Assembly (NCBI RefSeq): GCF_001263395.1
Contig: NZ_CP011786.1
Coordinates: forward strand, 1,116,001-1,180,000
Direction: 5' to 3'
DNA: 64,000 nucleotides
DNA from: Bifidobacterium actinocoloniiforme DSM 22766
GTDB lineage: Bacteria; Actinomycetota; Actinomycetes; Actinomycetales; Bifidobacteriaceae
Shown: piece by piece, positions 35,404-55,352 of the stretch
How positions within the stretch are numbered: the stretch's first letter is position 1
Layout: every line of letters begins with the position of its first letter
Made by a program: the position numbers and the translations under genes
Notes under the pieces: generated by a model
Databases searched by the model: none
Told to the model about the DNA's origin: nothing
What the model saw: the letters and a program-made list of their open reading frames with translations, nothing else

Positions 35404-37411
35404 CGGACACCACCTGGTCATCGGCGATACTTGTATTCCGACTCTCTTCTCGGATGAAGGGCACTGCTATCATCAAAGCAAAGCAGAACAAGAAACCGAG
35501 CGAGTACCGCACCTGATGCGCAGGCAGTGCCAACAAGTTCAGCCAAGTGAATACGAAGGGTAAAGTGAACAGCAGTTTGCCGTATTCTCTCCTAATGACG
35601 ACAAAACCCATCGCCACCAAAGGAATCCAAAGCACATATACAGCTTCGCTGCCAAGAAGAGAAAAAGGCGGAATCTTGTTCAGCAATGACACCAAGGGTA
35701 CAGCTATGGTCTTTTGCCCATGCGATAGCGCACACTCCTCATACCCTGGGAACAATGAACGACCACCAGCCTCCCACCAACCGCAACGCACAGCTGACGT
35801 GTAATAGTAAGTATCGTGTACCACGAACGGAATTGCCAAGTATAAGGCAGCCTTGAAATACTCTCCAGGATATCTAAAAAAGAGGCGCGCCCAAATCGCC
35901 ATGAACTTTGTACGATCCAATTTTGTGGCATCCTGCCGATAGGCATAGTGCTTAACATAATCGGAACTGTTGCGATTCCAATGTTGATGAGCTTCTTTTA
36001 CGTCTATTACCTTTTCAATTGCCTTTTTGTCCTTTGGTGACAATTCCGGCCATTTATCAATAGCTACCTTTGCGACCTGCTGCATAGGAACAGAGATGGC
36101 TTCTTGAGGACCTCCTGGAGCAATTCTTAATGGAGAAAATAGTGTAGCCGGTATCACAATGGCCACGAGTATCGGTGGAAGTAGAGCCATAAGAGCAACA
36201 CGCACTCTATTTTTATGAGCAAAGAGGGCAAGTGCCAACAGTGACAGACCTGTGACATATACTGATGTTTTCTTAGTCAAACCGCCCACGATACCAAAAA
36301 CTACCACTGCAGTAATAAGAGAAATGGTCAACCGTTCGTGCTTGCGCACCCGATAGACGCACTCATAAAACAGCACACACCAAAGTACAAAAAATGGCAG
36401 CCATGTCGTATCTTTGAGAACAATACTCATATACATTGGGAATGCGGGCAACAAAGCGCTGAAAAACAGGATGGCAACAACAGCTCCGTCCGGAAGACTG
36501 GTTCTCCTCCTAATCCAAGCAAGAGCCACGGCCAAAGAGAAAGCAGCGAATAAGGACTGGCAGATGATAAGCACCCGCATTCCTGCAATCTCATTACCAA
36601 GGAAAACGCCCAACTGGTCAAAGAGTCCGTACAACAAAGTGTCAAATACTGGATGATGATCCTGAGCCCTGTATCCCGGCAACTCATTCATCAGCATAGG
36701 ATCCCAGACATGGCCAGTTTTATACTGAATTAGTTGAACCATGGCGTCAACACCAATTATTGCCGGTCCATTAATGATAAGTACAGGCATCCAACATACG
36801 AAGATAATGATCGTAGTTATCAATATATGTTTTGGCGTGAAATCAATAAAGCTAGCCAATATGCGCCAAATCTTGTGAGATACAGACTTCGGGTCTGCGA
36901 CATTCTGCAGCTCCTGCTCGCTGACCTCCATTTTAGATCGATCCATATACTTAGCGGCGATGTCTTCCAACCAGCACAGTATCGCAAAGACAAACATGGA
37001 CAGAGCAAGAACCTGGAGAGCAAGGCAAAGTATGAAACTTGTAGAACTCCGCATAGCTTGCTCGTGGGTTTGCGCCTGAATCGAACCTCTTTCCAGGCTA
37101 GGGTCAGGGGCCATTCGCGGCAAAATGGTAGAGGAAGCGATAGCAGCGGATAGTATGCAGTTAACAACCTTGACCCGAATGGTCGCAACACTCAACAGCG
37201 GATAGATGCGATACACAATGTATCCGATACCGGTCATCATGGAAAAAGAACCTACAGCACCAAGCACGCCCACAGCGTCCATACTTTGGCTGAAGAAACT
37301 AGAGCTATTTGAAAAAGCGGCCGAGCTCGTACTCCTTAGGGTCAAAGCCATAGTTGACAGAATCCCGACTATAATTGAGCTGGTATAGCGTCTTATCGGC
37401 ACCCTTTTCAT
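35387..37411 (-). CDS. DUF6020 family polytopic membrane protein
   Basis: The protein has some fifteen hydrophobic helices and the DUF6020 landmarks: CWMPVLIINGPAIIGVDAMVQL near residue 208, a loop containing ELPGYRAQDHHPVFDTLLYGLF, and AISVPMQQVAKVA near residue 445. The family resembles GT-C glycosyltransferases in layout (many helices, large external loop) but its reaction is unknown. The start is uncertain: up to about residue 43 the frame overlaps another coding remnant (37305-37445), and ATG 37282 just before the first helix is an alternative. Its base composition is visibly AT-rich relative to the surrounding genes, suggesting transfer. Confidence 0.72.
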   Translation of the reverse strand: MKRVPIRRYTSSIIVGILSTMALTLRSTSSAAFSNSSSFFSQSMDAVGVLGAVGSFSMMTGIGYIVYRIYPLLSVATIRVKVVNCILSAAIASSTILPRMAPDPSLERGSIQAQTHEQAMRSSTSFILCLALQVLALSMFVFAILCWLEDIAAKYMDRSKMEVSEQELQNVADPKSVSHKIWRILASFIDFTPKHILITTIIIFVCWMPVLIINGPAIIGVDAMVQLIQYKTGHVWDPMLMNELPGYRAQDHHPVFDTLLYGLFDQLGVFLGNEIAGMRVLIICQSLFAAFSLAVALAWIRRRTSLPDGAVVAILFFSALLPAFPMYMSIVLKDTTWLPFFVLWCVLFYECVYRVRKHERLTISLITAVVVFGIVGGLTKKTSVYVTGLSLLALALFAHKNRVRVALMALLPPILVAIVIPATLFSPLRIAPGGPQEAISVPMQQVAKVAIDKWPELSPKDKKAIEKVIDVKEAHQHWNRNSSDYVKHYAYRQDATKLDRTKFMAIWARLFFRYPGEYFKAALYLAIPFVVHDTYYYTSAVRCGWWEAGGRSLFPGYEECALSHGQKTIAVPLVSLLNKIPPFSLLGSEAVYVLWIPLVAMGFVVIRREYGKLLFTLPFVFTWLNLLALPAHQVRYSLGFLFCFALMIAVPFIREESRNTSIADDQVVSATLDE

Positions 37412-37459: not shown

Positions 37460-38401
37460 TCAGGAAGAAATCAGGCGCCCTGACTGTGGGTAGTCAATTT
37501 GGGGATTGAACCGGAAGGCCTCCAGCATCTTGCCGTACATCTGCCGGCGCAGTTTCTTCTCCACATGTCCGATGCGCATAGACTTGAACACCATGCCACA
37601 GAAGAGCAAGTAGCGCAAGAAACCCTCATGGTGCAGAGTATACGAGCCCTGATTACGGGTACCGTACGCGAACTTCCACGCGTTCTTCTGATTGATCATC
37701 GAGAAGTTCACGCCCTTGTTATCACCCATATCATGCACGACCACACTGTCAAGCACCTGAATGCCCGGGCAGTTCTTGGTGATGCGGGTGGTGTACTCGG
37801 CATCGTCGAACCAGATGAAGTACTCCTTGTAAGGCAGACCGTAGGCTTCCATGACCCAGCGCGGTATCAGGACTGACACGAACGACGCACGGTTAATCAG
37901 GACCACGTCCTTGAGCCCTTCCGCCCGCAGACGCCCCCAATCCCATGTGGGCACAGGGTTGTTCATCTCGGATATGTGCCCGTCGATGAACTTGACCAAG
38001 GAGCATGCGAATGGGATGTCCGGACTAAACACATCGACAGCCCGTTCGTATCCGTCGACCAGCTTCTCAAGTGCATCAGGTGCAGGGTAACCATCGTCAT
38101 CAAAAATCCAGACGTAGTCAGCACCAATTTGGTAGCCCTTTTCCATACCGGCCGAAAAACCACCGGCCCCGCCTACGTTCTCCGGCAGAGTGACGATCTG
38201 CAGATTCACCTGATCCGCAATCTTAAAATTGTCGGCATACTCCTGCAAGTAAGTGGCGGTGCCATCGGTGGAAGCGTTGTCCACAATCACCAGGTGAGAC
38301 GGCAGCATGGTCTGTGCCTCCAAGGAAGCCAGGACCTTCTTGAGCTTCTCCAGGCGGTTGAAGGTAACAACTACTGCCGCGACATTCTTACTGTGCTTCA
38401 C
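37460..38401 (-). CDS. Glycosyltransferase family 2
   Basis: A GT-A fold enzyme with VAAVVVTFNRLEKL at the start, IVDNASTDGT, the GGAGGFSAG motif and the metal-binding acidic motif WIFDDDGYP near residue 93. The later FIWFDDAEYTTRI block is typical of rhamnosyl- or galactofuranosyl-type GT2 enzymes. I prefer the GTG at 38401, which overlaps the TGA of the upstream GT4 gene and has AAAGGA nine bases before it; an ATG at 38410 lacks spacing. It is paired with that GT4 gene and resembles the GT2 at 54363-55352. Confidence 0.85.
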   Translation of the reverse strand: MKHSKNVAAVVVTFNRLEKLKKVLASLEAQTMLPSHLVIVDNASTDGTATYLQEYADNFKIADQVNLQIVTLPENVGGAGGFSAGMEKGYQIGADYVWIFDDDGYPAPDALEKLVDGYERAVDVFSPDIPFACSLVKFIDGHISEMNNPVPTWDWGRLRAEGLKDVVLINRASFVSVLIPRWVMEAYGLPYKEYFIWFDDAEYTTRITKNCPGIQVLDSVVVHDMGDNKGVNFSMINQKNAWKFAYGTRNQGSYTLHHEGFLRYLLFCGMVFKSMRIGHVEKKLRRQMYGKMLEAFRFNPQIDYPQSGRLISS

Positions 38402-40086
38402 TGTGCCCATTCCTTTAGCATATTTTGGAAATACCGGTTGGCGGACTGCTGGCCGAAGAAGCTGGTTAACCTTGCATTCTCCACCTGCCACAAGCGTTCC
38501 CGATCTTCCTCATGCTCTCTGATATGCTCCATACTCCGCACGGCTGCGGCAATCAAATCGGCAGTGCGCCGAGGCAGCAATCCCTGAACTGGAATGAGCG
38601 TTGATTGAGAACCTACGTCAGCACTCAGGACCGGCAAACCGGCACTGATGGCTTCGATAGTGGTCAGGGTGATACCTTCGTTCACCGAAGAGACCAGCAG
38701 CAAATCGGCTTCCTGATACGTATCCTCCACCGACTGATTAAGACCACGGCGTTCAATGACATCCGTCAGACCAGCATGCTCGATTATGTTGTTGACTTCG
38801 CCATCCAAATCACCATTGCCGTGCATGATGAAGTGGTAGGCCCCCGGATGCGCGTGTTCCAAAATCTGCACGATTCTAATGAACGCCTCCGGTCGCTTCT
38901 GCCTGGTGACCCTTCCCACGAACGCTACACACAGCTGGCCTGGTTGCTGACGAGCTTTAATCGTATCTCGTCCAGTGTCAGCGGTCAGACCAACAAGAGG
39001 TGCCATGACAATCTTGGACTGACTTATGCCGTGCCTTTCAACCAGCCAGTTCTCCAGTTGCGGAGAGATGACATGGTGCAAGTCGATATAGGCATCCCGG
39101 CTTACTGCCTGGTTGGGATAACCGCCGCGATAGCGGTACTCCAAAATGTGCAGGGAATCGACGATTCGGGTCTGTGGATAGTAGCGCTTAATCCACCAAA
39201 GACGGTCGTAAAGCCATTGGTTGTGGTGGATCAGGGTACCGCGCACGTCGAATTGTTCGAAAATCGAGCGCAGCAAAGGTTCATCCCCCGGACGTTCCTG
39301 CATGGGGAAGGTGAGGCAAATGACTAGCGCACCCTCCAGCTCAGGTTTGCTGATCCACGGCTGATGACTGTCCATGTTCGTAATAACGATCGGCGTCATA
39401 CCGGCCCGTTTGACTAAGTCGATGGTCTCAAGGCCCCACCGTTCGGCCCCACCAGCCTGAAGCCAGTGCATACCCACCAGCACAGCCTTAGGGGCACCCT
39501 CCCTAGGCTTGTTCGGCTTGATGTCGAAGTATGGATGATGAAGCCGTTGCGCGACTTCGGCTGAGCTAAGATCCTGCGGAACGAATGGGACAATCGGCTG
39601 ATAGCTCTGCTTCTCCCGGTGCGAGCGCTGTGCTTCACGAATGTAGTCAAAAGCCACGGGAGCATAGGTCTCGCAAGCACGATACACCTTGCTGGCAAGC
39701 TTGACGGTCTGCTTGGCTTCGATATCCTCGTCGGTCGCGCCATCCGGAGACAACAAGATATATCGAACATTCCGGTCGATTATCTGCTGTTGACCTTCGA
39801 AATAGTGGGGAGAAAACTCACTGGAAGGATCTGCGGCGGATTTCGCCCGAAACTCCAGAAACGGTGTGAGCCCTGCTCGCTCCGTCAGATCCCCACTCAA
39901 CGTAGAGGTATCAGTCAGTCGAGGATACTGCCAGCGTTCTCCCATATATAAACGGTAACTGAGCTCCCGGCCTGGTTGGATAAGACTGTGGTAGTTCAGA
40001 GCAGCCAGCACCAATGCTCGCAACCGTGGACTTAACTTCTCAATGGCTGCGGACACAGACTCGTCCACATCAAATAACTTAAGCAT
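38398..40086 (-). CDS. Glycosyltransferase family 4-like protein with novel N-terminal domain
   Basis: Residues from about 205 form a GT-B fold: GMHWLQAGGAERWGLETIDL, then VAFVGRVTRQKRPEAFIRIVQ and the donor-site ISAGLPVLSADVGSQ near the end. The first 190 residues (SPRLRALVLAALNYHSL, YPRLTDTSTLSG) match nothing I recognise but are shared with the paralogue at 49476. The ATG at 40086 is chosen because it aligns with the paralogue's start, although it has no clear ribosome site. It gives 562 residues against 561 in the paralogue. It is coupled to the GT2 gene by an overlapping stop and start. Confidence 0.82.
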   Translation of the reverse strand: MLKLFDVDESVSAAIEKLSPRLRALVLAALNYHSLIQPGRELSYRLYMGERWQYPRLTDTSTLSGDLTERAGLTPFLEFRAKSAADPSSEFSPHYFEGQQQIIDRNVRYILLSPDGATDEDIEAKQTVKLASKVYRACETYAPVAFDYIREAQRSHREKQSYQPIVPFVPQDLSSAEVAQRLHHPYFDIKPNKPREGAPKAVLVGMHWLQAGGAERWGLETIDLVKRAGMTPIVITNMDSHQPWISKPELEGALVICLTFPMQERPGDEPLLRSIFEQFDVRGTLIHHNQWLYDRLWWIKRYYPQTRIVDSLHILEYRYRGGYPNQAVSRDAYIDLHHVISPQLENWLVERHGISQSKIVMAPLVGLTADTGRDTIKARQQPGQLCVAFVGRVTRQKRPEAFIRIVQILEHAHPGAYHFIMHGNGDLDGEVNNIIEHAGLTDVIERRGLNQSVEDTYQEADLLLVSSVNEGITLTTIEAISAGLPVLSADVGSQSTLIPVQGLLPRRTADLIAAAVRSMEHIREHEEDRERLWQVENARLTSFFGQQSANRYFQNMLKEWAQ

Positions 40087-40299
40087 GCTATCTATGATAA
40101 ACGGCAATCGAGTAACAAGCTGCGAGCACAGCCAAGCGCACACTATTTAGACACTCCCTATAACGAATTCCTAGGACCCGCTTAAGTAAGTTTGAAATCC
40201 GCTGTCGCTATTCCTCAACCAGCAACACAAACACCTGAATCTCTGTAAGATTTGAAACGGATGCGAGAATAAGAGACTCCCCAGTATACAATCTCACTG

Positions 40300-40305
40300 T
40301 ATAAT
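40300..40305 (+). promoter_or_regulatory. Perfect -10 hexamer overlapping the annotated ATG
   Basis: TATAAT occurs at 40300-40305 and its last bases form part of the first possible ATG (40304) of the following gene. If this is the -10 element, that ATG cannot be translated and the start would be the in-frame TTG at 40331. No convincing -35 is visible. Confidence 0.35.
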
Positions 40306-41278
40306 GGGCAGAGTGAAAGGAATACAGCCTTTGAAGGCAACAACTGCGGTATTACTGCCCTGCTATAACGAAGAGCAGACTATCGGTAAAGTCATCAGCG
40401 ACTTCCATGCTGCTCTTCCTGAAGCAGACATCTATGTCTATGACAACAATTCAACCGACCGAACGGCTCAGAAAGCCAAAGAAGCAGGAGCCATTGTCCG
40501 TCAAGAACCACGCCAAGGCAAAGGTAATGTCATCCGCGCCATGTTTGAGGACATAGATGCCAATGTGTATGTGATGGCTGATGGTGATGATACATACCCG
40601 GCTGACGCAGCACCCGCTATGGTTCAAAAAGTTTTAGACGGTTATGACATGGTAATTGGCGATCGTTTAAGCTCCACCTACTTCCAAGAGAATAAACGCC
40701 CTTTCCACAACATAGGCAATCGTGTAGTACGAGGTTTCATCAACAGTCTCTTCAACGCGCATGTCACCGATATTATGACCGGATACCGGGCCTTTTCCTT
40801 CACCTACGTAAAGACATACCCAATCCTGTCCAAGGGTTTCGAAGTCGAAACTGAGATGACCATTCATAGTCTGGACAAGAACGTACGCCTGTATGAGATG
40901 CCTATCCAATACAGAGATAGACCAGAGGGATCAGTCAGCAAACTGGATACGGTAGGCGATGGCTTAAAAGTCCTATCCACTATCTTCCGCATGATTCGGG
41001 AGTATCGGCCCCTCCCCTTCTTCGGGGGTCTAGGTGCGGTAATTGACATAACCGGCATTGCCCTGGTCATTTCAGTGCTTATTGACTTCTGGAACACCGG
41101 AGCAGTGGCTCGTTTCCCTACCTTGATTGGTTCTGTTTTACTTATTCTAGTGGGTCTACTGAGCATCGTCACCGGCATCATCTTGGATGTGATAGCCAAG
41201 AACGATCGCAAGAGTTACATCACTAACAGCAATATTTTCTCTTACCTGAAAAGGGCAGAGCTTTCCGACAAAGAATAA
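40304..41278 (+). CDS. Glycosyltransferase family 2, dolichyl-phosphate-mannose-synthase type
   Basis: The 324-residue protein has a GT-A domain with VLLPCYNEEQTIGKVI, YDNNSTDRTAQKA and the DXD motif MADGDDTYP near residue 92, followed by two C-terminal membrane helices (about residues 250-305). This layout is that of polyprenyl-phosphate sugar synthases, which load a lipid carrier for GT-C type transferases. The DUF6020 and DUF6541 proteins nearby are candidate users of such a donor. The start may be TTG 40331, which has AAAGGA nine bases upstream. Confidence 0.87.
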   Translation: MGRVKGIQPLKATTAVLLPCYNEEQTIGKVISDFHAALPEADIYVYDNNSTDRTAQKAKEAGAIVRQEPRQGKGNVIRAMFEDIDANVYVMADGDDTYPADAAPAMVQKVLDGYDMVIGDRLSSTYFQENKRPFHNIGNRVVRGFINSLFNAHVTDIMTGYRAFSFTYVKTYPILSKGFEVETEMTIHSLDKNVRLYEMPIQYRDRPEGSVSKLDTVGDGLKVLSTIFRMIREYRPLPFFGGLGAVIDITGIALVISVLIDFWNTGAVARFPTLIGSVLLILVGLLSIVTGIILDVIAKNDRKSYITNSNIFSYLKRAELSDKE

Positions 41279-41343
41279 GTCCCTGTTTGAAAGCTCATAA
41301 AAGCGTATAGCTTCGGGACGGAGGCACATCTACAATGAATGCT

Positions 41344-41356
41344 CCCCCCCCCCCCC
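41344..41356. repeat. Homopolymer C tract (13 C)
   Basis: Thirteen C in a row lie between the converging ends of the GT2 and GH25 genes. Being downstream of both it is unlikely to act on transcription start. Confidence 0.95.
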
Positions 41357-41394
41357 ACCCCGAAACTATCCGGATGCTAACCTGCCCACCATAA

Positions 41395-44049
41395 TTATTC
41401 AAATCGCCAGTTCTGGGCTTGGGTACCATTAGCCATGTATAGCTGGAGACCATTATTGTTCGCTACCGCACCCCCTGGTAAGTCAAGAACTAAATCCGAG
41501 GACAAAGCAGAAATGAGCTTGCTGCTTCCATCGCTCTGTCGGACAGCCACCCACTTCTGAGCATAAGTCCCATTCGCCTGATATTGCTGGACACGGGCAC
41601 CGGAGGACATGTTCGCACCGGCGACGTCCATCAGTTTACCTGAACCAGCATTCATGATTGTTAAGTATCCTTGACTGTCATGCCGAACAACCCATTGCTG
41701 AGCCCGAGTACCGTTGCCTGCATAAAGCTGCACCTTCCCATTGTTGTCGGAAGTGCCGCCAGCTACGTCAACCTTGTATCTGTTGTTTTCCCCTGATGCG
41801 ATTACATAGCTACCGTCCTTAACATCATTACGATGTTGAGCAGCCAACTGGTCTAGACGCTGCCGGACTGTTGGCTCGTTGGACAGTACCCACTTTTGAG
41901 CTGCAGTACCGTTCTGGCTGTATATCTGCATCTGTTGGCCAGACACGGCTTGGGCTCCAGATATATCCATAGCTTTATTGGACAGGCTACCGACAAAACT
42001 GAATTCACCGCCACCGGAATTACGCACTTGCCAACGCTGGGACTGGGTCCCGTTCAGCTGATACTGCTGAACTGGAGCGGCGTTCTGAGTCTGACCACCA
42101 GCTATTTCAAGGTTATTTCCTGATCTAGCATTACTTATTTCATAAATACCATTACCCACTTGTTTAAAAGTATAAAGCTGAGCATCAGTACCATTCCAGG
42201 GGTAAATCTGAATGCGGGTGCCGCTTTCCATTGAACCACCTGGTACATCAAGCACTAGTCCTGTGTTGATAGACGACCGAATCCGATACCAAGTATTTGC
42301 CTCGATAGTAGTTACAGAAGCAAGGGTAAATCGTTGAGCCCCCGTTCCATTGGGTTGATAGAGAGCAACGCGAGCATTGTCGGCAGTTGAAGCCCCTTCG
42401 ATATCCAACACCCAGTTGCCCAAAGCCGATTGCAAGTAGTATGAATTGCCTGCATCACGGATAAACCATCGTTGAGCAGTGCTTCCATTGCAGTCATACT
42501 GCCAAACTGTTGCATTGTTGCCAGCCACCGCATTAGACACATCTAAAGCCTTGCCTGAGTTGACATTAGTAATCACATACGAGCCATCGCTTTGTTTGCT
42601 AAAGACGAAACGCTGAGCTCCTGAATTGTTGTAACTATATAGATGAAGAGGAACACCTGAAGCCGCGCTAGCACCAGCAATGTCAATGCCTGAGGAATCC
42701 TTAAGCCAAGAGTTGATATAGTATTCCCCATCCGGCAGATTTACCCGGGGCAAATCGTTTACATTAAGCTCGGCCGCGAAATCGTGCAGGCCGCAAGCAT
42801 TCAAATCCACAGAACCTTTGATGCCGTTGATGCGGCCTCCATCCGAGTACTGCCAGCAACGTTCGTTGGCCGGATAGTTGAAACCAGGCCGAGAACCATA
42901 ACTGGCCACCCAGTCTGTTCTAGAGCGGATATTGCCGGAATTCAGCGCTGTGTTCAGGTAATGCGTATAGGAATACACCGACAGCTTGTTGTAGCCGGCG
43001 CTCTGCAATTGCCACCACCAGGAGTTCACGATTCCGTCGTATACCGCGGGGTTGGTGGGTGGACGATGCCCCGACCAAGACCACAGCTCCAAGTCGTAGT
43101 ACACCGGGTACTTCAAATCCCCTGGTCCGACACCAGCGCGACGCAGAAGGTCGACGACATTCGCACCCTCGGAAGAGGCGGTACCACTGTCATATGCATA
43201 CGAGTATAAGTAGATGCCGAAAGGTATGCCCAAGCGTTTGCACTCACTGATGTTGCGCAATGCCTTGTTGTCGAATCCGTTGCCCCAGCCGTAACCGATA
43301 CGGATGATGGCACCTTCCACGCCAGAATTGCGAGCCGCCTCCCAGTTGATATCGCCCTGCCACTCGGAAACGTCAATAACACCTTTAGCTTGCTGTGCGA
43401 ATAGCCCGCCATCAGCCTGGAAGAAGGCCTGCGTGCCATTGTACATACCCCAATACGCACCATACTGGTTGTTCTGCAAAGCCACAGTTCGGGCGGGAGA
43501 CGGAGCGGCGTCCTGAAGAGTCTGACCGTATGACATGTAACGACCTGGTTCAGCATGACGACGAGGCTGACTGTGCATGTTTCCGCTAAAGACGGACTGA
43601 CGAACGGCCTCATCACCACCAACCTTGCTCGCCGAATCGGGTTCCTTACCATCCATCTGTTCCTTGACTAGCCCCATAGGAACGGGGATGAACGAGCGTC
43701 CATTCGTCTTCGCCAAAGGATCGGCGGGTTTGCTTTCCGTGCCAACCAATTTTGGGTCGGTGACTGTCTTCCCCGTCTTTACGTCCTTGGTCTCTCCCGA
43801 ATCCGCTACAGCGAGATTCTTGGATACCAAGGTCGCACCGTCGGGAATCGCATCAGAAACCGCATCCGGCAGCTTGTCAGCAGGCAACTGTTCTTCAGTC
43901 GATACCGTTGAAGCAAACGCCTGGTTATCTGGTTCAGCAGAAGCAACCGTGTCAACGAGAGCCTCAGCCCATGCAGGATTAGCCCCGGTCCCCAACAAGC
44001 ACATACCCGCAGCAGCGGTCAATGCAAAGAATTTCTGTACAAAGCTCAT
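41395..44049 (-). CDS. Secreted GH25 lysozyme with ricin-type lectin repeats
   Basis: The 884-residue protein has a signal peptide (residues 1-28, cut after AWA), a hydrophilic linker to about 220, and a GH25 muramidase domain at about 222-420. Its catalytic acids are predicted as Asp 226 (VIDVSEWQGDINW), Asp 319 and Glu 321 (VYYDLELW). From about 440 to the end there are three ricin B-type trefoil units with repeated QxW-type motifs (GAQRF, AQRWFI, AQKWV). GH25 enzymes cut the glycan chain of peptidoglycan; the lectin tail should bind a surface carbohydrate. There is no wall anchor, so it is probably released or held by lectin binding. Confidence 0.92.
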   Translation of the reverse strand: MSFVQKFFALTAAAGMCLLGTGANPAWAEALVDTVASAEPDNQAFASTVSTEEQLPADKLPDAVSDAIPDGATLVSKNLAVADSGETKDVKTGKTVTDPKLVGTESKPADPLAKTNGRSFIPVPMGLVKEQMDGKEPDSASKVGGDEAVRQSVFSGNMHSQPRRHAEPGRYMSYGQTLQDAAPSPARTVALQNNQYGAYWGMYNGTQAFFQADGGLFAQQAKGVIDVSEWQGDINWEAARNSGVEGAIIRIGYGWGNGFDNKALRNISECKRLGIPFGIYLYSYAYDSGTASSEGANVVDLLRRAGVGPGDLKYPVYYDLELWSWSGHRPPTNPAVYDGIVNSWWWQLQSAGYNKLSVYSYTHYLNTALNSGNIRSRTDWVASYGSRPGFNYPANERCWQYSDGGRINGIKGSVDLNACGLHDFAAELNVNDLPRVNLPDGEYYINSWLKDSSGIDIAGASAASGVPLHLYSYNNSGAQRFVFSKQSDGSYVITNVNSGKALDVSNAVAGNNATVWQYDCNGSTAQRWFIRDAGNSYYLQSALGNWVLDIEGASTADNARVALYQPNGTGAQRFTLASVTTIEANTWYRIRSSINTGLVLDVPGGSMESGTRIQIYPWNGTDAQLYTFKQVGNGIYEISNARSGNNLEIAGGQTQNAAPVQQYQLNGTQSQRWQVRNSGGGEFSFVGSLSNKAMDISGAQAVSGQQMQIYSQNGTAAQKWVLSNEPTVRQRLDQLAAQHRNDVKDGSYVIASGENNRYKVDVAGGTSDNNGKVQLYAGNGTRAQQWVVRHDSQGYLTIMNAGSGKLMDVAGANMSSGARVQQYQANGTYAQKWVAVRQSDGSSKLISALSSDLVLDLPGGAVANNNGLQLYMANGTQAQNWRFE

Positions 44050-44294
44050 GATTCTCGCACAATCCTAGGCCAAGACGATGGCCATTTTTATCTATTTGCC
44101 TGTTTGCAACACTGTAATCGCTGACCACCGTAAATTAGCCAACAATCTCCGAGATGCCACACTTCCACCATAAGTGCGCGTAGTGATCTCAAGAAGCACA
44201 GCCACAGCATGTTATCTATAGCCGACAGTGCATGCCTGGATCGGCCTGATCACAGACCAAGTGCGAAACGCCACGAATCGATAGCCCCACCCCC

Positions 44295-44993
44295 TCAGCC
44301 GACACGGCAGACTCTGACTCGCTCCGCCGCCGCAGGTCCAAAGACCAATTCCACTCCCGTGGATGTGCCGCTAGTCCCTTCCATCAATTCGACCACGATT
44401 GCATCAGAGTAAGGAGGCTGAGGGGCTATACGCAGGAGGGAACCAACTTGAATTTGCTTGCTTTTGAGGTAACGCAGCATCTCGGGATCCTCATCCGAGA
44501 CGCGATCCACACGTGCAAAGGCACCCTGGGGAGCCTGTGACAGAGGGATTGAGTCCTTGCGATCAGGCAATTCACCAGTAGCAGCGGGGATGGAGTCGCC
44601 ATGCGGGTCACGATCGGGATGGCCCAGCAGCGCATCTATTCGGTTCACCAACCGGTCCGAAACCGCATGCTCCAGACTTTCCGCCTCCTCGTGCACCTCG
44701 TCCCAGCTGTAGCCCAAAGTCTCCACCAAGAAAGTCTCCATGAGCCGATGGCGGCGCACCATTCGAATCGCATACTGGCGGCCAAGAGAGGTCAGATCCA
44801 CACCTCCATATGGCCGATGCTCCACCAGGCCTGCGGCCCCAAGACGGTTCATGGCACCGGAGACCGTGGATAGCTTGACACCTACACGCTTCGCCAGAGC
44901 CGAGGGCTGCACCGGACTCGGATCCCACTCCTGCAGGTCCCAGATAATCTTCAGATAGTCCTGCGAGTTCGCCGATAAATCGTCCAAATCCAT
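44295..44993 (-). CDS. DtxR family metal-dependent regulator (MntR/IdeR-like)
   Basis: The 232-residue protein has an N-terminal winged helix (NSQDYLKIIWDLQEW, SALAKRVGVKLSTVSGAMNRL), the metal-binding and dimer domain with RRHRLMETFLVETLGY and EVHEEAESLEHAVSDRL, and a C-terminal FeoA/SH3-like domain. His and Glu in these two blocks match the ligand positions of DtxR proteins. It is transcribed away from mntH, 232 bases apart, so it most likely represses mntH when manganese or iron is sufficient. No ribosome site precedes its ATG. Confidence 0.9.
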   Translation of the reverse strand: MDLDDLSANSQDYLKIIWDLQEWDPSPVQPSALAKRVGVKLSTVSGAMNRLGAAGLVEHRPYGGVDLTSLGRQYAIRMVRRHRLMETFLVETLGYSWDEVHEEAESLEHAVSDRLVNRIDALLGHPDRDPHGDSIPAATGELPDRKDSIPLSQAPQGAFARVDRVSDEDPEMLRYLKSKQIQVGSLLRIAPQPPYSDAIVVELMEGTSGTSTGVELVFGPAAAERVRVCRVG

Positions 44994-44999
44994 AAGGAA

Positions 45000-45029
45000 A
45001 GTCTAACAAGAGGCCAGAAGGCCACTCAA
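45000..45029 (-). promoter_or_regulatory. Probable promoter for the DtxR gene, leaderless layout
   Basis: On the minus strand TTGAGT (45024-45029) and TAGACT (45000-45005) are 18 bases apart. Only six bases separate the -10 from the ATG at 44993, so transcription would start at or next to the A of the start codon. This agrees with the absence of a ribosome site. Confidence 0.4.
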
Positions 45030-45225
45030 TGCGAGGCAGACATCATACAGCAGGCCGCCGGCGCACAGGCAAATAACCTTCACATGCGAACAGTGGAAAT
45101 AAAACACAGCATCCGCTAGACTTCGCGTAGTCAAAGATAGTTGTTTGCACATACGCAGAAATAACCATCTTCGCAGCACGACCCGGCACGAAGTCAGGCA
45201 CATAAGCTCAGAGTTGAAGGACAGC

Positions 45226-46755
45226 ATGGCGAGCAAACCAGCAGATGACTCGAACGCCCGACCGATTGCGCACACCAGGAAACAAACACCCAGCGCAGCG
45301 CACGAAAACAGGCGAACAGCAGACATGACCGTCGACAACAGCGCCGAGTCAACCGCTACAGTCAAGGGCGGCGCAAGAAATCCCTCATCCCATCAACACC
45401 GACCCATCCTCCTTGTGCAGACAGCCAACGGCCGCTCCCTCGAGGAGGTCAACTCCTCCATTCCTGTCCCCAGGAACAAGACTTCTTTCTGGCGCAACCT
45501 GGCCGCCTTTTCGGGCCCCGGAGCCCTGGTGGCCGTAGGATACATGGACCCGGGCAACTGGATCACCTCGATCGGGGGCGGCGCCCAATACGGTTACCTG
45601 CTGATGTCCGTGGTGCTCATCTCCAGTCTGATCGCGATGATGCTGCAATACATGTCCGCCAAGTTGGGCATCGTCACCGGCCTGGACTTGGCCCAGGCCA
45701 CGCGGGAGCACACCGGCCGCAAGCTCAGCTTCGTCCTCTGGATCTGCACCGAGCTGGCCGTCATGGCCACCGACATAGCCGAGGTAATCGGCGGCGCCAT
45801 CGCATTGAAGCTCCTGTTCGGCATCCCCCTGGTCGTGGGCGTGGCGCTGACCGTGCTCGACGTGCTGATCCTCCTGTTGCTCACCCATTTGGGTTTCCGT
45901 CGAATCGAGGCCATCGTTGCCGGGCTGATCATGGTCATCATGCTGATCTTCGTTTATGAGGTCATCCTCGCCCGCCCCGATGTGCCCGCCATGCTAGAGG
46001 GTTTCATCCCCAACAAGACGATCCTGGGCAGGGGCCAGCTGACCATGGCCCTCGGCATCGTCGGCGCCACGGTCATGCCCCACAACCTCTACTTGCACTC
46101 CTCCATTGTGCAGACACGCGACTTCGACCGCTCCGATGACAAGCAAGTGGCCAACGCGGTCCGTTTCGCCACCTGGGACTCCAACATACAGCTGACCGGC
46201 GCCTTCATCGTCAACTGCCTCCTACTCGCGCTAGGCGCGGCCATGTTCTTCGGCCACGGCGAAAGTCTGGACACCTTCACCGCCCTATACAACGCCTTGG
46301 GCGACCAGTCCATCGCCGGCCCTGTGGCCTCGGGCCTGCTGAGCACACTGTTCGCCGTGGCCCTCCTGGCCTCGGGGCAGAACTCCACCATCACCGGCAC
46401 CCTGACCGGGCAGATCGTGATGGAGGGCTTCATCCGCATGCGCATCCCCATCTGGCTGCGCCGCCTGGTCACCCGCGTCATCTCGATTATTCCGGTCCTG
46501 ATCTGCACGGTCATCTTCGGCGGCAAGGAATCGGCCCTGGACAGCCTTTTGGTCTATTCGCAGGTCTTCTTGTGCGTGGCCCTGCCCATCTCGATGGTCC
46601 CCCTGGTCTGGTTCACCTCGTCGCGCAAAATCATGGGCAAGTACGCCAATCCCAAGTGGCTGGCCGCACTGGCCTGGGTGGTGGTTGCGGTCCTGTCCGC
46701 GCTGAACGTCCAACTCGCCATCCAAGATGTAAGCGAGCTGATAGCCCTGCTATAA
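45226..46755 (+). CDS. mntH: NRAMP family Mn(II)/Fe(II) transporter
   Basis: A 509-residue proton-coupled divalent metal importer with about eleven helices. The metal-binding motif DPGNW is in [11 protein letters not shown] near residue 107 and the second conserved motif is in [10 protein letters not shown] near residue 285. The ATG at 45226 has AAGGA upstream; the first 80 residues are a long hydrophilic tail rich in Ser and Thr, which is unusual for the family. The gene is divergent from a DtxR-type regulator and followed by catalase, consistent with manganese supply for oxidative defence. Confidence 0.93.
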
Positions 46756-47098
46756 ACCCGTCTCAGGCTGGCTGGAGACTCATACAAGGCACGACCAGGC
46801 GGGCGCGCGCCACAAAGCGCATGTGCGCGCATTGCGATGCCCGCCTTCCGCCGTTTAGCGCCCGTGTTCAATTCCATGCTCGGTCCAACCTCAACCCGGC
46901 ACGCGAGTCATCTCACTTCACCGCGAGAACCACCCCTTCCTAATCGCAGGCTACGGTGTTACGGTCTAATTAGGGACACGCGGGAAAATCTCCCGTGCAA
47001 CCGACATGGGCCGGACACATTCCGACTCTGCGCGCATGGAACAAGCCATCCGATCGCAAACCCAGCCGGCGATGCTCCTCAAGAATCGAAAGGGCGTC
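46756..47098. other. Intergenic region upstream of katA
   Basis: This 343-base stretch has no credible gene. It contains a small hairpin near 46982-46996 (CGGGA/TCCCG) and an A/T-rich patch at about 46950-46975 that could hold the catalase promoter. A frame upstream of the catalase ATG is open but has no family similarity. Confidence 0.45.
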
Positions 47099-48547
47099 AT
47101 GAACGCAAAGCTCACCACTAACGAAGGCCAGCCCTGGGGCGACAACACCCACAGCCAAACCGCCGGCAAACGCGGACCCATCCTGATGCAGGACTACCAG
47201 CTGCTGGAAAAGCTAGCCCACTTCAACCGCGAGCGCACCCCCGAGCGTGTGGTCCACGCCAAAGGGGCGGGTGCCAAGGGCACATTCAAACTCACTCGCG
47301 ACATGAGTCAATACACCAAGGCCGACCTATTCAACGGTGAAGGCAAGGAGACGCCAGTGCTGATTCGCTTCTCCCAAGTGGCCGGAGAGGCAGGTTACCC
47401 CGACACCATGCGCGACGTGCGCGGCTTCGCCCTGCGTTTTTACACGGCCGAGGGCAACTACGACGTGGTGGGCAACAACACGCCCGTCTTCTTCGTGAAC
47501 GACCCGCTCAAGTTCCCCGACTTCATTCATTCGCAAAAGCGCGATCCGGCCACCCACCTGCGCTCCCAAGAGATGCAGTGGGACTTCTGGTCGCACTCCC
47601 CCGAGTCTCTCCACCAGGTGACCTACCTGATGGGCGACCGCGGCAATCCGGCCTCCTACCGGACCATGAACGGCTACGGCTCCCACACCTTCAAGTGGGT
47701 CAACGCGCAAGGTGAGCAGTTCTGGGTCAAGTACCATTTCATCAGCGCCCAAGGCGTTAAAGACATGACCAACGAGCAGGCCGCCAAGGCAGCCTCCGAA
47801 GACACGGACTATTTGCTGCACGACCTCTACAGCGCGATTGACCAGGGCGATTACCCGTCCTGGAAGGTGTGCGTGCAAATCCTACCCTACGAGGAAGGGT
47901 TGAATTACAAGACCGACATCTTCGATGTGACTAAGACCGTCTCCAAGAAGGACTATCCGCGCATCGAGATTGGCGAGTTCACGCTGAATCAGAATCCGGT
48001 CAATTATTTCGACGAAGTGGAGGAGGCGGCTTTCTCGCCCGCTAACTTCGTTCCTGGCATCGAGCCTTCACCCGACAAGCTCTTGCAGGGCCGCCTCTTC
48101 GGCTACAAGGACGCCGAACGCTACCGCCTTGGCGCCAACTACGAGCAGCTGCCCATCAACCGACCGGTCAACGAGGTGCATAATTACGAGCGCGACGGCT
48201 TCATGGCCCAGGGCCAGGACGGCTCGGTCAACTATGAGCCCAACTCCCACGACGGCCCCGTTGAGGACCATGACGCGCGTATGCACGCCGACAGCGAGGC
48301 GCTGACCAGCCAAGCCGAGTACTCACGCCCCTACGAGGTGGACCACTTCTCCCAGGCCGGCGACCTCTACCGTCTGATGAAGCCGGAAGAGAAGGACCGG
48401 ATGATTGAGACCATCAAGTCGACCCTAGGCACTGTGGACAGCGAAGAGATCAAGATCTTGGAGACCAAGCAGTTCCACCAGGCCGACCATGAGTACGGCG
48501 AGCGCGTAGCCCAGGCCCTGGGTCTGTCGATGGATTCCATCCGCTGA
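47099..48547 (+). CDS. katA: Monofunctional haem catalase
   Basis: Catalase splits hydrogen peroxide to water and oxygen. The 482-residue protein is a small-subunit (clade 3) catalase. The catalytic His is in ERVVHAKGAGAKG near residue 54, the catalytic Asn in VVGNNTPVFFVND near residue 127, and the proximal haem Tyr in RLFGYKDAERYRLG near residue 337. The ATG at 47099 has AAAGGG upstream and gives the standard length. Catalase is rare in Bifidobacterium and supports an oxygen-exposed species. It follows mntH in the same direction. Confidence 0.96.
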   Translation: MNAKLTTNEGQPWGDNTHSQTAGKRGPILMQDYQLLEKLAHFNRERTPERVVHAKGAGAKGTFKLTRDMSQYTKADLFNGEGKETPVLIRFSQVAGEAGYPDTMRDVRGFALRFYTAEGNYDVVGNNTPVFFVNDPLKFPDFIHSQKRDPATHLRSQEMQWDFWSHSPESLHQVTYLMGDRGNPASYRTMNGYGSHTFKWVNAQGEQFWVKYHFISAQGVKDMTNEQAAKAASEDTDYLLHDLYSAIDQGDYPSWKVCVQILPYEEGLNYKTDIFDVTKTVSKKDYPRIEIGEFTLNQNPVNYFDEVEEAAFSPANFVPGIEPSPDKLLQGRLFGYKDAERYRLGANYEQLPINRPVNEVHNYERDGFMAQGQDGSVNYEPNSHDGPVEDHDARMHADSEALTSQAEYSRPYEVDHFSQAGDLYRLMKPEEKDRMIETIKSTLGTVDSEEIKILETKQFHQADHEYGERVAQALGLSMDSIR

Positions 48548-48560
48548 CCCCGTCAAGCCA

Positions 48561-48608
48561 GTGAGGCCGGGCCTTGAGCGCTCAAACCGCTCCGCAACCC
48601 GGCCCCAC
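48561..48608 (+). terminator. Possible transcript-end hairpin after katA
   Basis: GTGAGGCCGGG (48561-48571) pairs with CCCGGCCCCAC (48598-48608) with one imperfect pair; the loop contains a TTGAGCGCTCAA palindrome. There is no T run, so this is a weak call. Confidence 0.4.
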
Positions 48609-48688
48609 TGCATGCTCCCGTGACACGCCCTGCCTGGCACACTCACCCGTCGGCCAAGGTGTGTGTTATTATGGAGCAGTTGTGACCT

Positions 48689-48776
48689 GGAGGATTCGCC
48701 TAGTGGTCTATGGCGCACGCTTGGAAAGCGTGTTGGGTTCACGCCCTCACGAGTTCGAATCTCGTATCCTCCGCCA
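48689..48776 (+). tRNA. tRNA-Ser (anticodon GGA)
   Basis: The 85-base body folds as a type II tRNA with acceptor GGAGGAT/ATCCTCC, anticodon loop TTGGAAA within stem CACGC/GCGTG, a long variable arm, and a canonical GAGTTCGAATCTC T-arm. CCA is encoded at 48774-48776. Confidence 0.95.
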
Positions 48777-48780
48777 TATG

Positions 48781-48810
48781 AAGCCCCTCATGCCGAGGGG
48801 CTTCTTTTTT
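48781..48810 (+). terminator. Terminator after tRNA-Ser
   Basis: AAGCCCCTC (48781-48789) pairs with GAGGGGCTT (48795-48803) and is followed by CTTTTTT. It begins four bases after the tRNA CCA end. Confidence 0.9.
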
Positions 48811-48954
48811 ACATGAATACGAAGTTATAGAAGTTTGTCTACACTGCCTTCTCTGAGACATGATGCTGCCTTGCCAAAGTCGCACACTACTCATAACGCC
48901 GATGTGCGGCATATGCTCTTGCCAGCAAAGGCCGACGACAGCAGGAGACTGGGA

Positions 48955-49299
48955 CTAACCTGCTACGTGGGTGATTATCATCCCCGCATAGGACAGTACC
49001 ACGAGGATATAGCACCAGCCTAAAGCCTTCTTCACAGATATTTTCTCGATACCCATATCAGGCAGCAGTAAAGCTACAACAGGAATAACAGGAATAAAGT
49101 ATCGACTCTGAATACCCCCGATCCAGGTTCCAGAAGGATTGGGGGAGAAGGAGATATACAGGCCCAGCTCTACCGCAATCAGAAAAAGGAAGGATACGAC
49201 ACCGGCCATGCCCCTCACCCACTTCATGCCAGGAAAACCGTTGACGGCGTGAGCGGACAACAGGCACAGCACCACAAAGGCGACCAGCAGAGGGATCAT
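48955..49299 (-). pseudogene. C-terminal remnant of a DUF2142-type membrane protein
   Basis: The 114-residue frame carries two or three hydrophobic stretches and the segment TWIGGIQSRYFIPVIPVVALLLP, which resembles the conserved GVQGRYFLP motif near the C-terminus of DUF2142 proteins. Just upstream the frame meets a TGA and no further family sequence is visible before the glycosyltransferase at 49476. Full proteins are about 400-500 residues. The remnant starts right after tRNA-Ser. Confidence 0.6.
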
Positions 49300-49475
49300 G
49301 CCACGTTGGGCAGATGAACGGTCTCACTTTGAATTTCTGTGATACGCCAAGGCCCGCAGGACTTTCGACAAACAGTCTCAGCCTCCCCCTCAAACAGCGG
49401 CAATTGTAGCACCTCATATGGCAATGACGGTCTAAGTCCCCACCTTCGGTAGCGTTCATCGACTATCATGGCCGC

Positions 49476-51161
49476 ATGCCTACATTCTTCTCTCTGAGCC
49501 GCTCCGCACAGGAGAGACTGAACGCCTTCAGTCCACGATTGCGTGCCCTGGCCGAATCCGCCATGAACTACCACAGCCTGCTCACGCCAGGCGCAGCCAT
49601 AGAATACCTCTTTTATATGGGCCAGGCCCGCCAGTACCCCCGACTGACAGACACCAGCACGGTCAGCGGGGAATTGACCAGCGACGCAGGGCTGCATCCT
49701 TTCCTGAAAGTCAGGGCCATCTCATCATCGACGGGCTCATTGGCGCAGACAGGCAAACTCCGCCAGCAATCAACCAGCCATGCCGTCCGCCACATCCTAC
49801 TTACGCCGGACCAGGCAACCGATGCGGACGCTCGCGCCATCGCTCGGGGCAGCCTGCCCAAACGCGTGTATCGCATATGCGAGGAGCACGCCCCCATCAG
49901 CTTTGACTACGTCCGGGAAGCACTTCGCCATGTCGCGGAGCACGACATGCGCAAGCGCATCGCCCGGATACATGAAGACAGTCATCCAGACTCTGCGCAT
50001 ATGCAGTCATCTCAGGTCGAAGCAAACTCCCACATCTCCGCGCATGACGCAAAACGCCAGGGCGCTGTTGTGATCGCCGCCCACTGGCTGCAACCAGGAG
50101 GAGCCGAACGCTGGGCCATGGAAACAGTTCGGCTCGTCTCTCAGACAGGCATGGTGCCCATCGTCATCACCGACAATGACAGCCACCAGCTGTGGATAAC
50201 CCGCCCAGAGCTACGCTCCGCCCTAGTCCTATGCCTCAGCCTTCCTCTGACGTCCGGAGCAGAGGGGATGTCGCTCATGGACTCCCTGTATGGGCAATTC
50301 GACATCCGCGCCATCCTAATCCACCACAACCAGTGGATGTATGACCAGCTGCCCAGAGTCAAACAACGCCACCCGAATACCATGGTGGTGGATTCCCTGC
50401 ACATTCTGGAATACCGACATCGGGGAGGGTATCCCTGCCAAGCGGTCCGGTATGATCCTTACATCGACATCCATCACGTCATCTCCCCCCAGCTCCGGGA
50501 TTGGCTGGTCCGTGCGCAAGGAATCGACGCAGGCAAGGTGGTACTGGCTCCGCTGATGGGCATGACGACGGGGGCGACCCGAAAGGAAGTCAAGCCAAAA
50601 GCCGAAGACAATAGGCTATGCGTCGCCTTCGTGGGCAGGGTGACCCGCCAGAAAAGACCTGAGGTCTTCATCAGGATCTCGGCCCTTCTGGAACATGCGC
50701 AACCAGGAGCTTTTCGTTTCCTCATGCACGGCAATGGAGATCTCGACGATAAGGTCGATCAGGAGATTACGCGTGCGGGATTGACCTCGGTGGTGGAACG
50801 GCGCGACATATCCATTCCAGCTTCACAGACCTACAAGGAAGCGGATGTCCTGCTAGTCACGTCAGACAATGAGGGCTTGACGCTCACCACAATGGAAGCC
50901 ATCAGTGCGGGAATACCAACACTGAGCGCGACCGTAGGAGCCCAATCCACTCTGATTCCCAAACAGGGGCTACTCCCCCGCCGCAGCGCTGACCTGGCGA
51001 GAGCCGCGACCCGAGTCTTGAAGCATCTGCTTGTCGACGAATCCGATCGGGCTAGCCTGTGGCAGGCTGAACGTGGACGTTTGGACGAGTTTGCCCGTCT
51101 GACCACCGCCAATGAATATTATGAAACTATGCTGAAACACGAGGCTTCTCACAGCTCATAA
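49476..51161 (+). CDS. Glycosyltransferase family 4-like protein, paralogue of 38398-40086
   Basis: The 561-residue protein has the same two-part design as the gene at 38398: an unrecognised N-terminal domain (SPRLRALAESAMNYHSL, YPRLTDTSTVSG) and a GT-B domain from about residue 200 (AAHWLQPGGAERWAMETVRL, VAFVGRVTRQKRPEVFIRI, ISAGIPTLSATVGAQS). By my count 45 of the first 83 aligned residues are identical. It is the first gene of a plus-strand group with a GT2 and a DUF6541 protein. The upstream spacer has a weak ribosome site. Confidence 0.85.
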   Translation: MPTFFSLSRSAQERLNAFSPRLRALAESAMNYHSLLTPGAAIEYLFYMGQARQYPRLTDTSTVSGELTSDAGLHPFLKVRAISSSTGSLAQTGKLRQQSTSHAVRHILLTPDQATDADARAIARGSLPKRVYRICEEHAPISFDYVREALRHVAEHDMRKRIARIHEDSHPDSAHMQSSQVEANSHISAHDAKRQGAVVIAAHWLQPGGAERWAMETVRLVSQTGMVPIVITDNDSHQLWITRPELRSALVLCLSLPLTSGAEGMSLMDSLYGQFDIRAILIHHNQWMYDQLPRVKQRHPNTMVVDSLHILEYRHRGGYPCQAVRYDPYIDIHHVISPQLRDWLVRAQGIDAGKVVLAPLMGMTTGATRKEVKPKAEDNRLCVAFVGRVTRQKRPEVFIRISALLEHAQPGAFRFLMHGNGDLDDKVDQEITRAGLTSVVERRDISIPASQTYKEADVLLVTSDNEGLTLTTMEAISAGIPTLSATVGAQSTLIPKQGLLPRRSADLARAATRVLKHLLVDESDRASLWQAERGRLDEFARLTTANEYYETMLKHEASHSS

Positions 51162-51264: not shown

Positions 51265-52200
51265 ATGGACATACAAACCGGCAGCGCCACCGACGGCACG
51301 CAGGCTTCCCTTCCGTTCAGCCTATTGATGCCAGTGTACGCGGGTGACCGGGCTGACTATGTGCGAAAGGCGTTGCTGTCCAATACCGTGGAACAGAATC
51401 TCCCTCCCTCGCAAGTGGTGCTTGTCCAGGATGGACCAGTCGGCTCGGGCATAGCGCAACTCCTCGACTCCCTCCCGGCTATGTTGACCGAACAATTCAT
51501 AGCAGCAGGTAGAGCGGACAAGCAGCCCGAACTGGAAATCGTGCGCCTTCCGCATAATGCCGGTCTGGCTAAAGCTTTGAACCAAGGCCTGCGACATTGC
51601 GGATATGATCTTGTGGCACGGGCCGATAGTGACGACATCTCCATGCCTGAACGGTTTGAAGCCATCGTTCCCCTACTCACCGGTAGCGCGGGGAACAGGT
51701 TCGATGTGGTAGGCAGCTTTATCCAAGAATTCTCGGACGAGCAGGATGACCCGGGGCAAGTTCGAGAGCTTCCGACGGGAGGGGCCGAACTTGAGGCTTT
51801 CGCCAGGCTTCGTTCGCCGCTGCACCACCCGAGCGTGGCGTTCAGAAGATCCGTGGTTGCTTCCGTGGGAGGATACCCTGAAGGGCAAGGAAGGTTCGAG
51901 GATTACCTCCTATGGGAGCGTATGATACTGGCAGGCGCCCGCCTATGCAATGTCCCCCTTCCTTTAGTCCTGTACCGTGTCGATGCCGGAGCCTACGAGC
52001 GAAGGGGAGGATTACCCATGTTCATTGATGAACTGCGCATGCAGAATCGCTTCCGGTCCGACGGCTTCACCACCGCCCCGCAATTTGTGCGAAATGTATG
52101 CATACGAGCCCTGTACAGGCTACTGCCCACTCCAGTGCGTACAGTCGGTTATCGCTGCCTCACTGGCCTGCGACATGCGCTTCGTCCTGTCAGGGAGTAG
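51265..52200 (+). CDS. Glycosyltransferase family 2
   Basis: A 311-residue GT-A enzyme. The N-terminal block PFSLLMPVYAGDRADYVRKAL, VVLVQDGPVG and LPHNAGLAKALNQGL, then the metal motif VARADSDDISMPERFE near residue 115, match bacterial GT2 enzymes such as rhamnosyl- or galactosyltransferases. The C-terminal third has FEDYLLWERM, a common acceptor-site block. It lies between the GT4 paralogue and the DUF6541 gene in the same direction. Confidence 0.87.
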   Translation: MDIQTGSATDGTQASLPFSLLMPVYAGDRADYVRKALLSNTVEQNLPPSQVVLVQDGPVGSGIAQLLDSLPAMLTEQFIAAGRADKQPELEIVRLPHNAGLAKALNQGLRHCGYDLVARADSDDISMPERFEAIVPLLTGSAGNRFDVVGSFIQEFSDEQDDPGQVRELPTGGAELEAFARLRSPLHHPSVAFRRSVVASVGGYPEGQGRFEDYLLWERMILAGARLCNVPLPLVLYRVDAGAYERRGGLPMFIDELRMQNRFRSDGFTTAPQFVRNVCIRALYRLLPTPVRTVGYRCLTGLRHALRPVRE

Positions 52201-54382: not shown

Positions 54383-55352
54383 ATCCGTCACCTTCCACGG
54401 CTTGTATGGCCTGAGCGACTTCGGGCTCAGCGCAGAAGATGGAAGCATTGTCTAAGGGGCGCGTTCCGAAACCGGCGCGCAGCCCTCTGCCCAGGCATTT
54501 CAGTATCAGCCCGCGGTCTTTGGAACGCAGGAGCGTCAGCACCCAGCGACGGACGGTCTTTGCCAGCAACTCTCCGAACTCCATTACGGTGAAATTGCTG
54601 GACGAATACCGCATCAGCCAAATTTTGTTGCGCACCTCGTAGAAGAATCGATTTCCGGGATCCGCATCGCTGGAGCCGAAGACCTTTGTTTTATGGACCA
54701 CTTCGCTGGCTGGGACGAAGTAGCCGATGCCGTCTTTGAGCAGACGGGTCGTGAACTCGAAATCATCATTCCACAGGAAGTAGGCGCTCCTGGGCAAAGC
54801 GCGCGCCTTTCGAATCGCTTGCGCGCTAATCAGACAGGACACGAATGACAAGGAACGAACCTGGTATGCCCCTGCTGATGCCTTGAGGGTCCTATGCCCT
54901 GCTTTCACCCATGTGCGCGGCCTGGGCTTGCTCATGCCGTGAATCTCGCCATTAATCCACAAAGCCTGAGATCCCATGACCGTCGGTTGCCGACCATTAA
55001 GGCGGCTGGCCTCCTCAGCTGCGTCAAGCAGCTTCTCCAATGCCGTCGAAGTAGGGATTACATCATCATCCATGATCCAGATACTGGAATTGTCCCAGTC
55101 GGAACCCTCCTCCAAGGCCAGCGCAATGCCGGCGGAGAACCCCCCCGCTCCTCCCATATTGCGCGACAGCTGCACGAGCTTCGCTCCGCAAGGATGCTGC
55201 TGCACCACGGAGGCTGAATCGTCGCTGCTGGCATTGTCCACGACAATAATACTGTCGGGCTTTCGGGTCTGAGCTTGCAAACCGTCCAGGCACTGCCGCA
55301 GCAGCTGTGACCGGTTATAGGATACGACCAGGGCAGTGACGCGAGAAATCAT
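54363..55352 (-). CDS. Glycosyltransferase family 2
   Basis: This GT-A enzyme has RVTALVVSYNRSQLLRQCL, IIVVDNASSDDSA, GGAGGFSAG and the acidic motif WIMDDDVIP, and resembles the GT2 gene at 37460 in the same order of motifs (including YFLWNDDFEFTTRLL). I chose the ATG at 55352, directly before the fold, giving 329 residues; the frame extends to 55430 without a ribosome site. It converges on and overlaps the DUF6541 gene. Confidence 0.85.
   Translation of the reverse strand: MISRVTALVVSYNRSQLLRQCLDGLQAQTRKPDSIIVVDNASSDDSASVVQQHPCGAKLVQLSRNMGGAGGFSAGIALALEEGSDWDNSSIWIMDDDVIPTSTALEKLLDAAEEASRLNGRQPTVMGSQALWINGEIHGMSKPRPRTWVKAGHRTLKASAGAYQVRSLSFVSCLISAQAIRKARALPRSAYFLWNDDFEFTTRLLKDGIGYFVPASEVVHKTKVFGSSDADPGNRFFYEVRNKIWLMRYSSSNFTVMEFGELLAKTVRRWVLTLLRSKDRGLILKCLGRGLRAGFGTRPLDNASIFCAEPEVAQAIQAVEGDGFTGHKR

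Follow-up and report, generated by a model that had tools for sequence, protein, structure and literature searches.

A predicted GT4 glycosyltransferase with an orphan N-terminal domain, its GlfT1-like GT2 partner and a partnerless paralogue in a bifidobacterial genome

Two genes for putative GT4 glycosyltransferases, named copy A and copy B here, lie in a stretch of 64,000 nucleotides (the window) from a 1.83 Mb, single-contig genome of the Bifidobacteriaceae. A search of the whole genome found these two copies and no third. The genes and features around them are as follows, in window coordinates.

28797..29912, minus strand: LicD family protein
29909..31042, minus strand: NAD-dependent epimerase/dehydratase
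31895..33160, minus strand: Wzt-like ATPase of 421 aa, with a C-terminal extension
33160..34134, minus strand: Wzm-like ABC-2 permease
34240..35403, plus strand: acyltransferase-3 family membrane protein
35387..37411, minus strand: DUF6020 multi-span membrane protein
37460..38410, minus strand: GlfT1-like GT2, partner of copy A (NF050113, 77 bits, cut-off 330)
38398..40086, minus strand: copy A, predicted GT4 with the N-terminal orphan domain (562 codons including the stop region)
39592..40086, minus strand: N-terminal orphan domain of copy A, residues 1–165 (from a model; no fold or Pfam match)
40304..41278, plus strand: GT2 (DPM-like) adjoining copy A, in relatives too
41395..44049, minus strand: GH25 lysozyme with ricin-type lectin repeats
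44295..44993, minus strand: DtxR-type metal regulator, in the ancestral gene order
45145..46755, plus strand: MntH-like transporter, in the ancestral gene order (name read from the sequence; 85% identical in relatives)
47006..48547, plus strand: catalase, in the ancestral gene order (name read from the sequence; 84–85% identical in relatives)
48689..48776, plus strand: tRNA-Ser(GGA), a landmark common to relatives, between catalase and copy B
48955..49299, minus strand: DUF2142 membrane protein, reduced to a C-terminal remnant; immediately upstream of copy B
49476..51161, plus strand: copy B, paralogous predicted GT4 with no adjacent partner (W298R and W560E in copy A numbering)
51265..52200, plus strand: GT2_B, of an older independent module
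52262..54382, plus strand: DUF6541 membrane protein of the GT2_B module
54363..55430, minus strand: GlfT1-like GT2 of the GT2_B module (GlfT1like_B), sharing 36% identity with copy A's partner

Copy A is taken to start at ATG 40086 (stop at 38398), a codon that aligns with the start of copy B; the mechanical open reading frame reaches GTG 40143. The 3′ end of copy A overlaps the start of its GT2 partner by 4 nt (GTGA) or by 13 nt (ATG 38410). The DUF2142 remnant matches the end of the profile (positions 326–395 of 395, E 1.2e-5, under the curated cut-off). The Wzt-like ATPase has 421 aa here versus 244 aa in locus L067, and a Pfam search with its C-terminal extension found nothing at E ≤ 0.001. 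A homologue of the GH25 lysozyme is located near the GT4 gene in several further loci, and in locus L036 an acyltransferase gene (14680–15867) is seemingly split into two frames.

Copies A and B are full-length paralogues, with 296 of 568 aligned positions identical in BLASTP (52%, 582 bits, E 0.0). The preliminary description had proposed that both genes join a common N-terminal domain to a GT-B domain, and the full-length alignment bears this out. Its count of 45 identities over the first 83 residues was obtained again, in an alignment without gaps, and the motifs that it named, SPRLRAL (residue 19), NYHSL (31) and QYPRLTDTST (53), are at identical positions in both copies. The N-terminal domain was thought to span roughly 190 residues; the domain is present, but it covers closer to 165 residues, with a variable linker after it. 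By region, the identity between the copies is 47.5% in the N-terminal domain (77/162), 56.7% in the GT4 N-lobe and 59.9% in the C-lobe, and none of the 29 linker positions is identical.

The GT-B domain begins near residue 198 and takes up residues 198–562 of copy A. PF13692 was matched at 2.1e-15 and 9.7e-14, and PF00534 scored above its cut-off. In the structural comparison, residues 198–562 matched GT4 structures with Z up to 21.8. TarM (4x7r; Z 21.8, rmsd 5.0 over 339 aligned residues), SdgB (7vfl; Z 21.4, rmsd 5.3 over 347) and GtfA (4pqg; Z 19.5, rmsd 4.9 over 341) are among the best matches of the GT-B domain, and BshA was also among the matches. Both glutamates of the GT4 E-x7-E motif (E470 and E478) are kept in all rows examined, copy B included, and so are R392 and K397. 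By predicted fold, Pfam domain and E-x7-E motif, both copies are thus assigned to GT4, a family of the GT-B fold and the retaining class.

The model of copy A, made from a 16-row alignment, has a pLDDT of 85.6 and a pTM of 0.84. When the N-terminal domain was modelled alone with AlphaFold (to residue 170; pLDDT 82.0, pTM 0.65), it formed a separate alpha/beta domain with several strands. Searched alone, this domain matched nothing. No Pfam match was found in the 15 of 15 members scanned (best chance E 0.13), and no PDB sequence was found at E ≤ 10. Among PDB folds the best hits were at E 0.48 and probability 0.05 with Foldseek, and at Z 3.0 over 43 residues with VIA; the best in a viral fold library was at E 0.14. 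The earlier statement that the domain can be assigned to no known one therefore held in every one of these searches. P55, R56, P143, D147 and R150 do not vary in any of the rows, which come from Bifidobacteriaceae, Microbacterium and a third genus. The domain was not found outside the GT4 architecture: of 396 genomes sampled evenly across the order, 8 matched, all in frames of 544–598 aa. In the phylum sample, only the window's own genome (1/396) carried the domain at E ≤ 1e-40.

An absent fold match neither proves a new fold nor excludes a known one. The domain could be a divergent member of a known fold, such as a carbohydrate-binding or DUF1975-like beta module. TarM, SdgB and GtfA carry an add-on beta domain, which sits within the first Rossmann lobe. 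These three proteins are the best structural matches of the whole chain, and the several strands of the model would also agree with such an origin. In contrast to them, however, the extra domain here precedes the GT-B domain, and the empty searches speak against kinship with any catalogued fold. We regard a known fold as a real possibility, though an unlikely one.

Strong matches to the GT4 were found in 23 of 189 Bifidobacteriaceae genomes (E ≤ 1e-92, the next match being at 1.5e-11), in 17 of 149 genomes of the genus of G889, judged to be Microbacterium, and in 4 of 61 genomes of the third genus, to which G743 belongs. Any match at all was given by 93 of the 189 Bifidobacteriaceae; 70 of these had generic GT4s only (best 1.5e-11) and were not counted. 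This patchy presence resembles that of variable polysaccharide loci. Homologues of the GlfT1-like partner of copy A (E ≤ 1e-60) occur in 23 of 189 Bifidobacteriaceae, and these are the same 23 genomes that have the GT4. On the same strand, the partner is the next gene after the GT4 in all 22 of the other loci from bifidobacteria, in all four loci of the third genus and in 16 of 17 from Microbacterium, where the remaining locus, L125, is cut off by its contig end. Contig end aside, copy B is the only member found without a partner. On gene order and co-occurrence, the GT4 thus appears to be one half of an obligate pair with the GlfT1-like GT2. L037 covers the same contig region as L110/L134, and L037 and L110 are one gene. 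In genome G099 (L024/L065) the GT4 coding sequence is split between two overlapping frames, either because it is a pseudogene or through a sequencing error; this broken frame (L024) was left out of the trees and the conservation counts.

An exporter beside the transferases is the arrangement of ABC-exported glycans, and it was found here, with Wzm/Wzt at 31895–34134 in the window. Wzm/Wzt genes lie within 7 kb of the pair in 20 of 22 bifidobacterial loci, in 16 of the 16 Microbacterium loci examined and in 4 of 4 third-genus loci; they were not found within the 20 kb examined of G069 and G009. UDP-galactopyranose mutase (UGM, glf) joins them to give five contiguous genes in 4 of the 22 loci from bifidobacteria (L060, L062, L063 and L064) and in all 4 third-genus loci; in the latter, the genes glf-wzm-wzt-GT4-GT2 all share a strand. 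The order is wzm-wzt-GT4-GT2-glf or glf-wzm-wzt-GT4-GT2 in these 8 loci from two families. The two UGMs checked, from L067 and L062, both score above the curated cut-off. UGM also adjoins the pair in L059 and is some 6 kb off in L057. In 15 of 17 Microbacterium cases it shares the contig of the pair, at a distance of 14.6–22.4 kb, and in the genome of the window it is about 68 kb from copy A. The presence of UGM was tried as a discriminator and failed: it is near-universal in all three groups (181/189 Bifidobacteriaceae, 132/149 Microbacterium, 60/61 of the third genus), so that presence alone says nothing, and among the 149 Microbacterium genomes it is not enriched in GT4-positive genomes (Fisher p 0.69).

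GlfT1 is the best equivalog match of the partner GT2 in all three copies scanned. The scores against NF050113 are 77.2 bits in the window, 87.9 in L067 and 70.2 in L062, under the cut-off of 330, and the enzyme is therefore called GlfT1-like rather than GlfT1. With 70–88 bits against 330, it may add another sugar, for example rhamnose.

We incline, with modest confidence, to the reading that copy A and the GlfT1-like GT2 form a two-enzyme polymerase of an alternating Galf/hexose glycan for ABC export, with copy B as a lone diverging duplicate. From the observed sequences, pairing, linkage, phylogeny and motif retention, we infer the sugars, the linkages, complex formation, the role of the N-terminal domain and the function of copy B. 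Copy A and the overlapping GT2 would each contribute one catalytic subunit to a cytoplasmic polymerase that makes a polysaccharide of the cell surface. The retaining GT4 would add an alpha-hexose, most likely Galp, and the inverting GT2 would add beta-Galf, supplied by UGM. Acting alternately on a lipid-linked primer, the two would build a chain that Wzm/Wzt export and that the LicD, acyltransferase and DUF6020 proteins may decorate. The N-terminal domain would dock the partner or hold the growing acceptor. The alternating beta-Galf/alpha-hexose reading is drawn by analogy with mycobacterial galactan and Klebsiella O4, as described in the available parts of the two sources (PMC10951656, PMC11231755).

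The pair might instead build a wall glycan that is not a galactan, for instance one containing rhamnose or glucose. The GT2 would then transfer rhamnose or some other sugar, the GT4 would be an alpha-glucosyl-, GlcNAc- or rhamnosyltransferase, and UGM would serve another enzyme of the locus. Consistent with this, the GT2 also matches the TIGR01556 rhamnosyltransferase model (41 bits) while missing the GlfT1 cut-off, the GT4 matches many specificities weakly, and a near-universal UGM need not belong to the pair. Against it, GlfT1 remains the best equivalog match in every copy scanned, and UGM and the pair are contiguous in 8 loci that represent two families. A non-galactan product seems doubtful, at about the level of a known fold for the N-terminal domain.

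Copies A and B are sisters with support of 95/91 in trees of 24 and 35 rows, which upholds the paralogy proposed in the preliminary description. The 35-row tree was made without L037 and L125 and without eight further rows (L113, L114, L116, L118, L119, L120, L124 and L126), which are from Microbacterium. The branch of B is about three times as long as that of A (1.1 versus 0.35). Copy B changes 12 of the 127 columns that are invariant in A and 21 others, and the count of changes at otherwise invariant columns is 12 in B versus 2 in A. Three of the 12 changes fall on tryptophans, out of eight (p 0.028, post hoc). W298 is tryptophan in 42 of 43 other rows (phenylalanine in one), distant genera included, and arginine in B; W560 is tryptophan in all rows with letters at this column, distant genera included, and glutamate in B. 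W52 is also changed in B, but it is not kept in Microbacterium. The loss from B of two tryptophans that the partnered copies keep suggests that W298 and W560 may serve the paired function. Selective relaxation of the N-terminal domain of B was not seen, identity being lost in all domains.

Judged from these substitutions, copy B is probably a re-aimed or decaying duplicate. Decay of a redundant gene, rather than neofunctionalisation, would fit the threefold longer branch, the lost partner, the excess of changes at otherwise invariant columns and the neighbouring DUF2142 remnant, a sign of local decay. In contrast, the frame of 561 codons is intact, the catalytic residues are kept, and identity to the genus relative L005 is still 41% in the N-terminal domain and 53–58% in the GT4 lobes. 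On balance we consider plain decay unlikely.

The order catalase-MntH-DtxR-(GH25 or GT2)-GT4 is common to the relatives, and so is tRNA-Ser(GGA) beyond the catalase; the tRNA therefore borders a variable zone. In 7 of the 7 other GT4-bearing genomes of the genus, GT2_B-DUF6541-GlfT1like_B occurs without a second GT4, likewise beyond the catalase/tRNA-Ser landmark, with one GT4 per genome. Because the relatives hold this module without a second GT4, the sequence comparison indicates that only the GT4 gene, and not the whole module, was duplicated within this lineage. A topology that unites A with the seven relatives from the genus and leaves B outside was not rejected (p-AU 0.077), and the duplication may therefore predate the split from these relatives, with B later lost there. 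In genome G025, GT2_B, DUF6541 and GlfT1like_B lie beside its only GT4. A lateral origin of B from a G025-like locus was considered and rejected, the grouping of B with G025 failing the AU test (p-AU 0.00025).

The preliminary description had linked each copy to a GT2 and a large membrane protein, which stands, but the linked genes are not copies of each other. That a whole glycosyltransferase module was duplicated and inverted, as it proposed from this linkage in opposite orientation, is extremely improbable, because the membrane partners are unlike (no significant similarity between DUF6020 and DUF6541), the two GlfT1-like GT2s of the window are only 36% identical, and 7 of 7 relatives carry the B-side module by itself. 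In the two-enzyme polymerase reading, B would be a GT4-only duplicate that landed past tRNA-Ser, in front of the older GT2_B-DUF6541-GlfT1like_B set, and, after losing its partner, would be diverging towards another acceptor or partner.

Known systems offer parallels in part. According to the available parts of the source, mycobacterial galactan uses Glf for UDP-Galf, GlfT1 and GlfT2 for the Galf chain, and Wzm-Wzt (PMC10951656). The system proposed here would resemble it in using Glf, a GlfT1-type GT2 for a lipid-linked chain and an ABC exporter. Unlike that system, with its two galactofuranosyltransferases, the second enzyme here is a predicted GT4 with an orphan N-terminal domain, and the GT2 scores under the GlfT1 cut-off. 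The Klebsiella O4 chain alternates alpha-Galp, which a GT4 adds, with a furanose (PMC11231755), and ABC-transporter-dependent synthesis is common to O4, to O2a/O1 (PMC10629545) and to the present proposal. The Klebsiella systems differ in their other accompanying enzymes and in making lipopolysaccharide rather than a Gram-positive surface glycan, and no such N-terminal domain is reported in the available parts of these papers. No paper on the GT4/GlfT1-like GT2 gene pair was found, which is not proof of absence. What is new here is the apparently strict pairing of a predicted GT4 with a GlfT1-like GT2.

Surface glycans of bifidobacteria are known to contain Galf (PMC12413058, PMC6920858), and in their available parts these papers name no gene of this type for its polymerisation. 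The pair with its exporter and mutase is thus a testable candidate for bifidobacterial Galf polymerisation, of genes not named in the literature found. Copy B is a natural partnerless variant and gives an internal comparison for a pair with an orphan domain. A stronger reading, which we consider rather improbable, is that a new-fold N-terminal domain ties a retaining GT4 and an inverting Galf transferase together into an obligate two-enzyme polymerase, with W298 and W560 in the coupling surface and copy B as a freed, re-aimed subunit. If true, this locked pair would be a Gram-positive route to alternating galactans.
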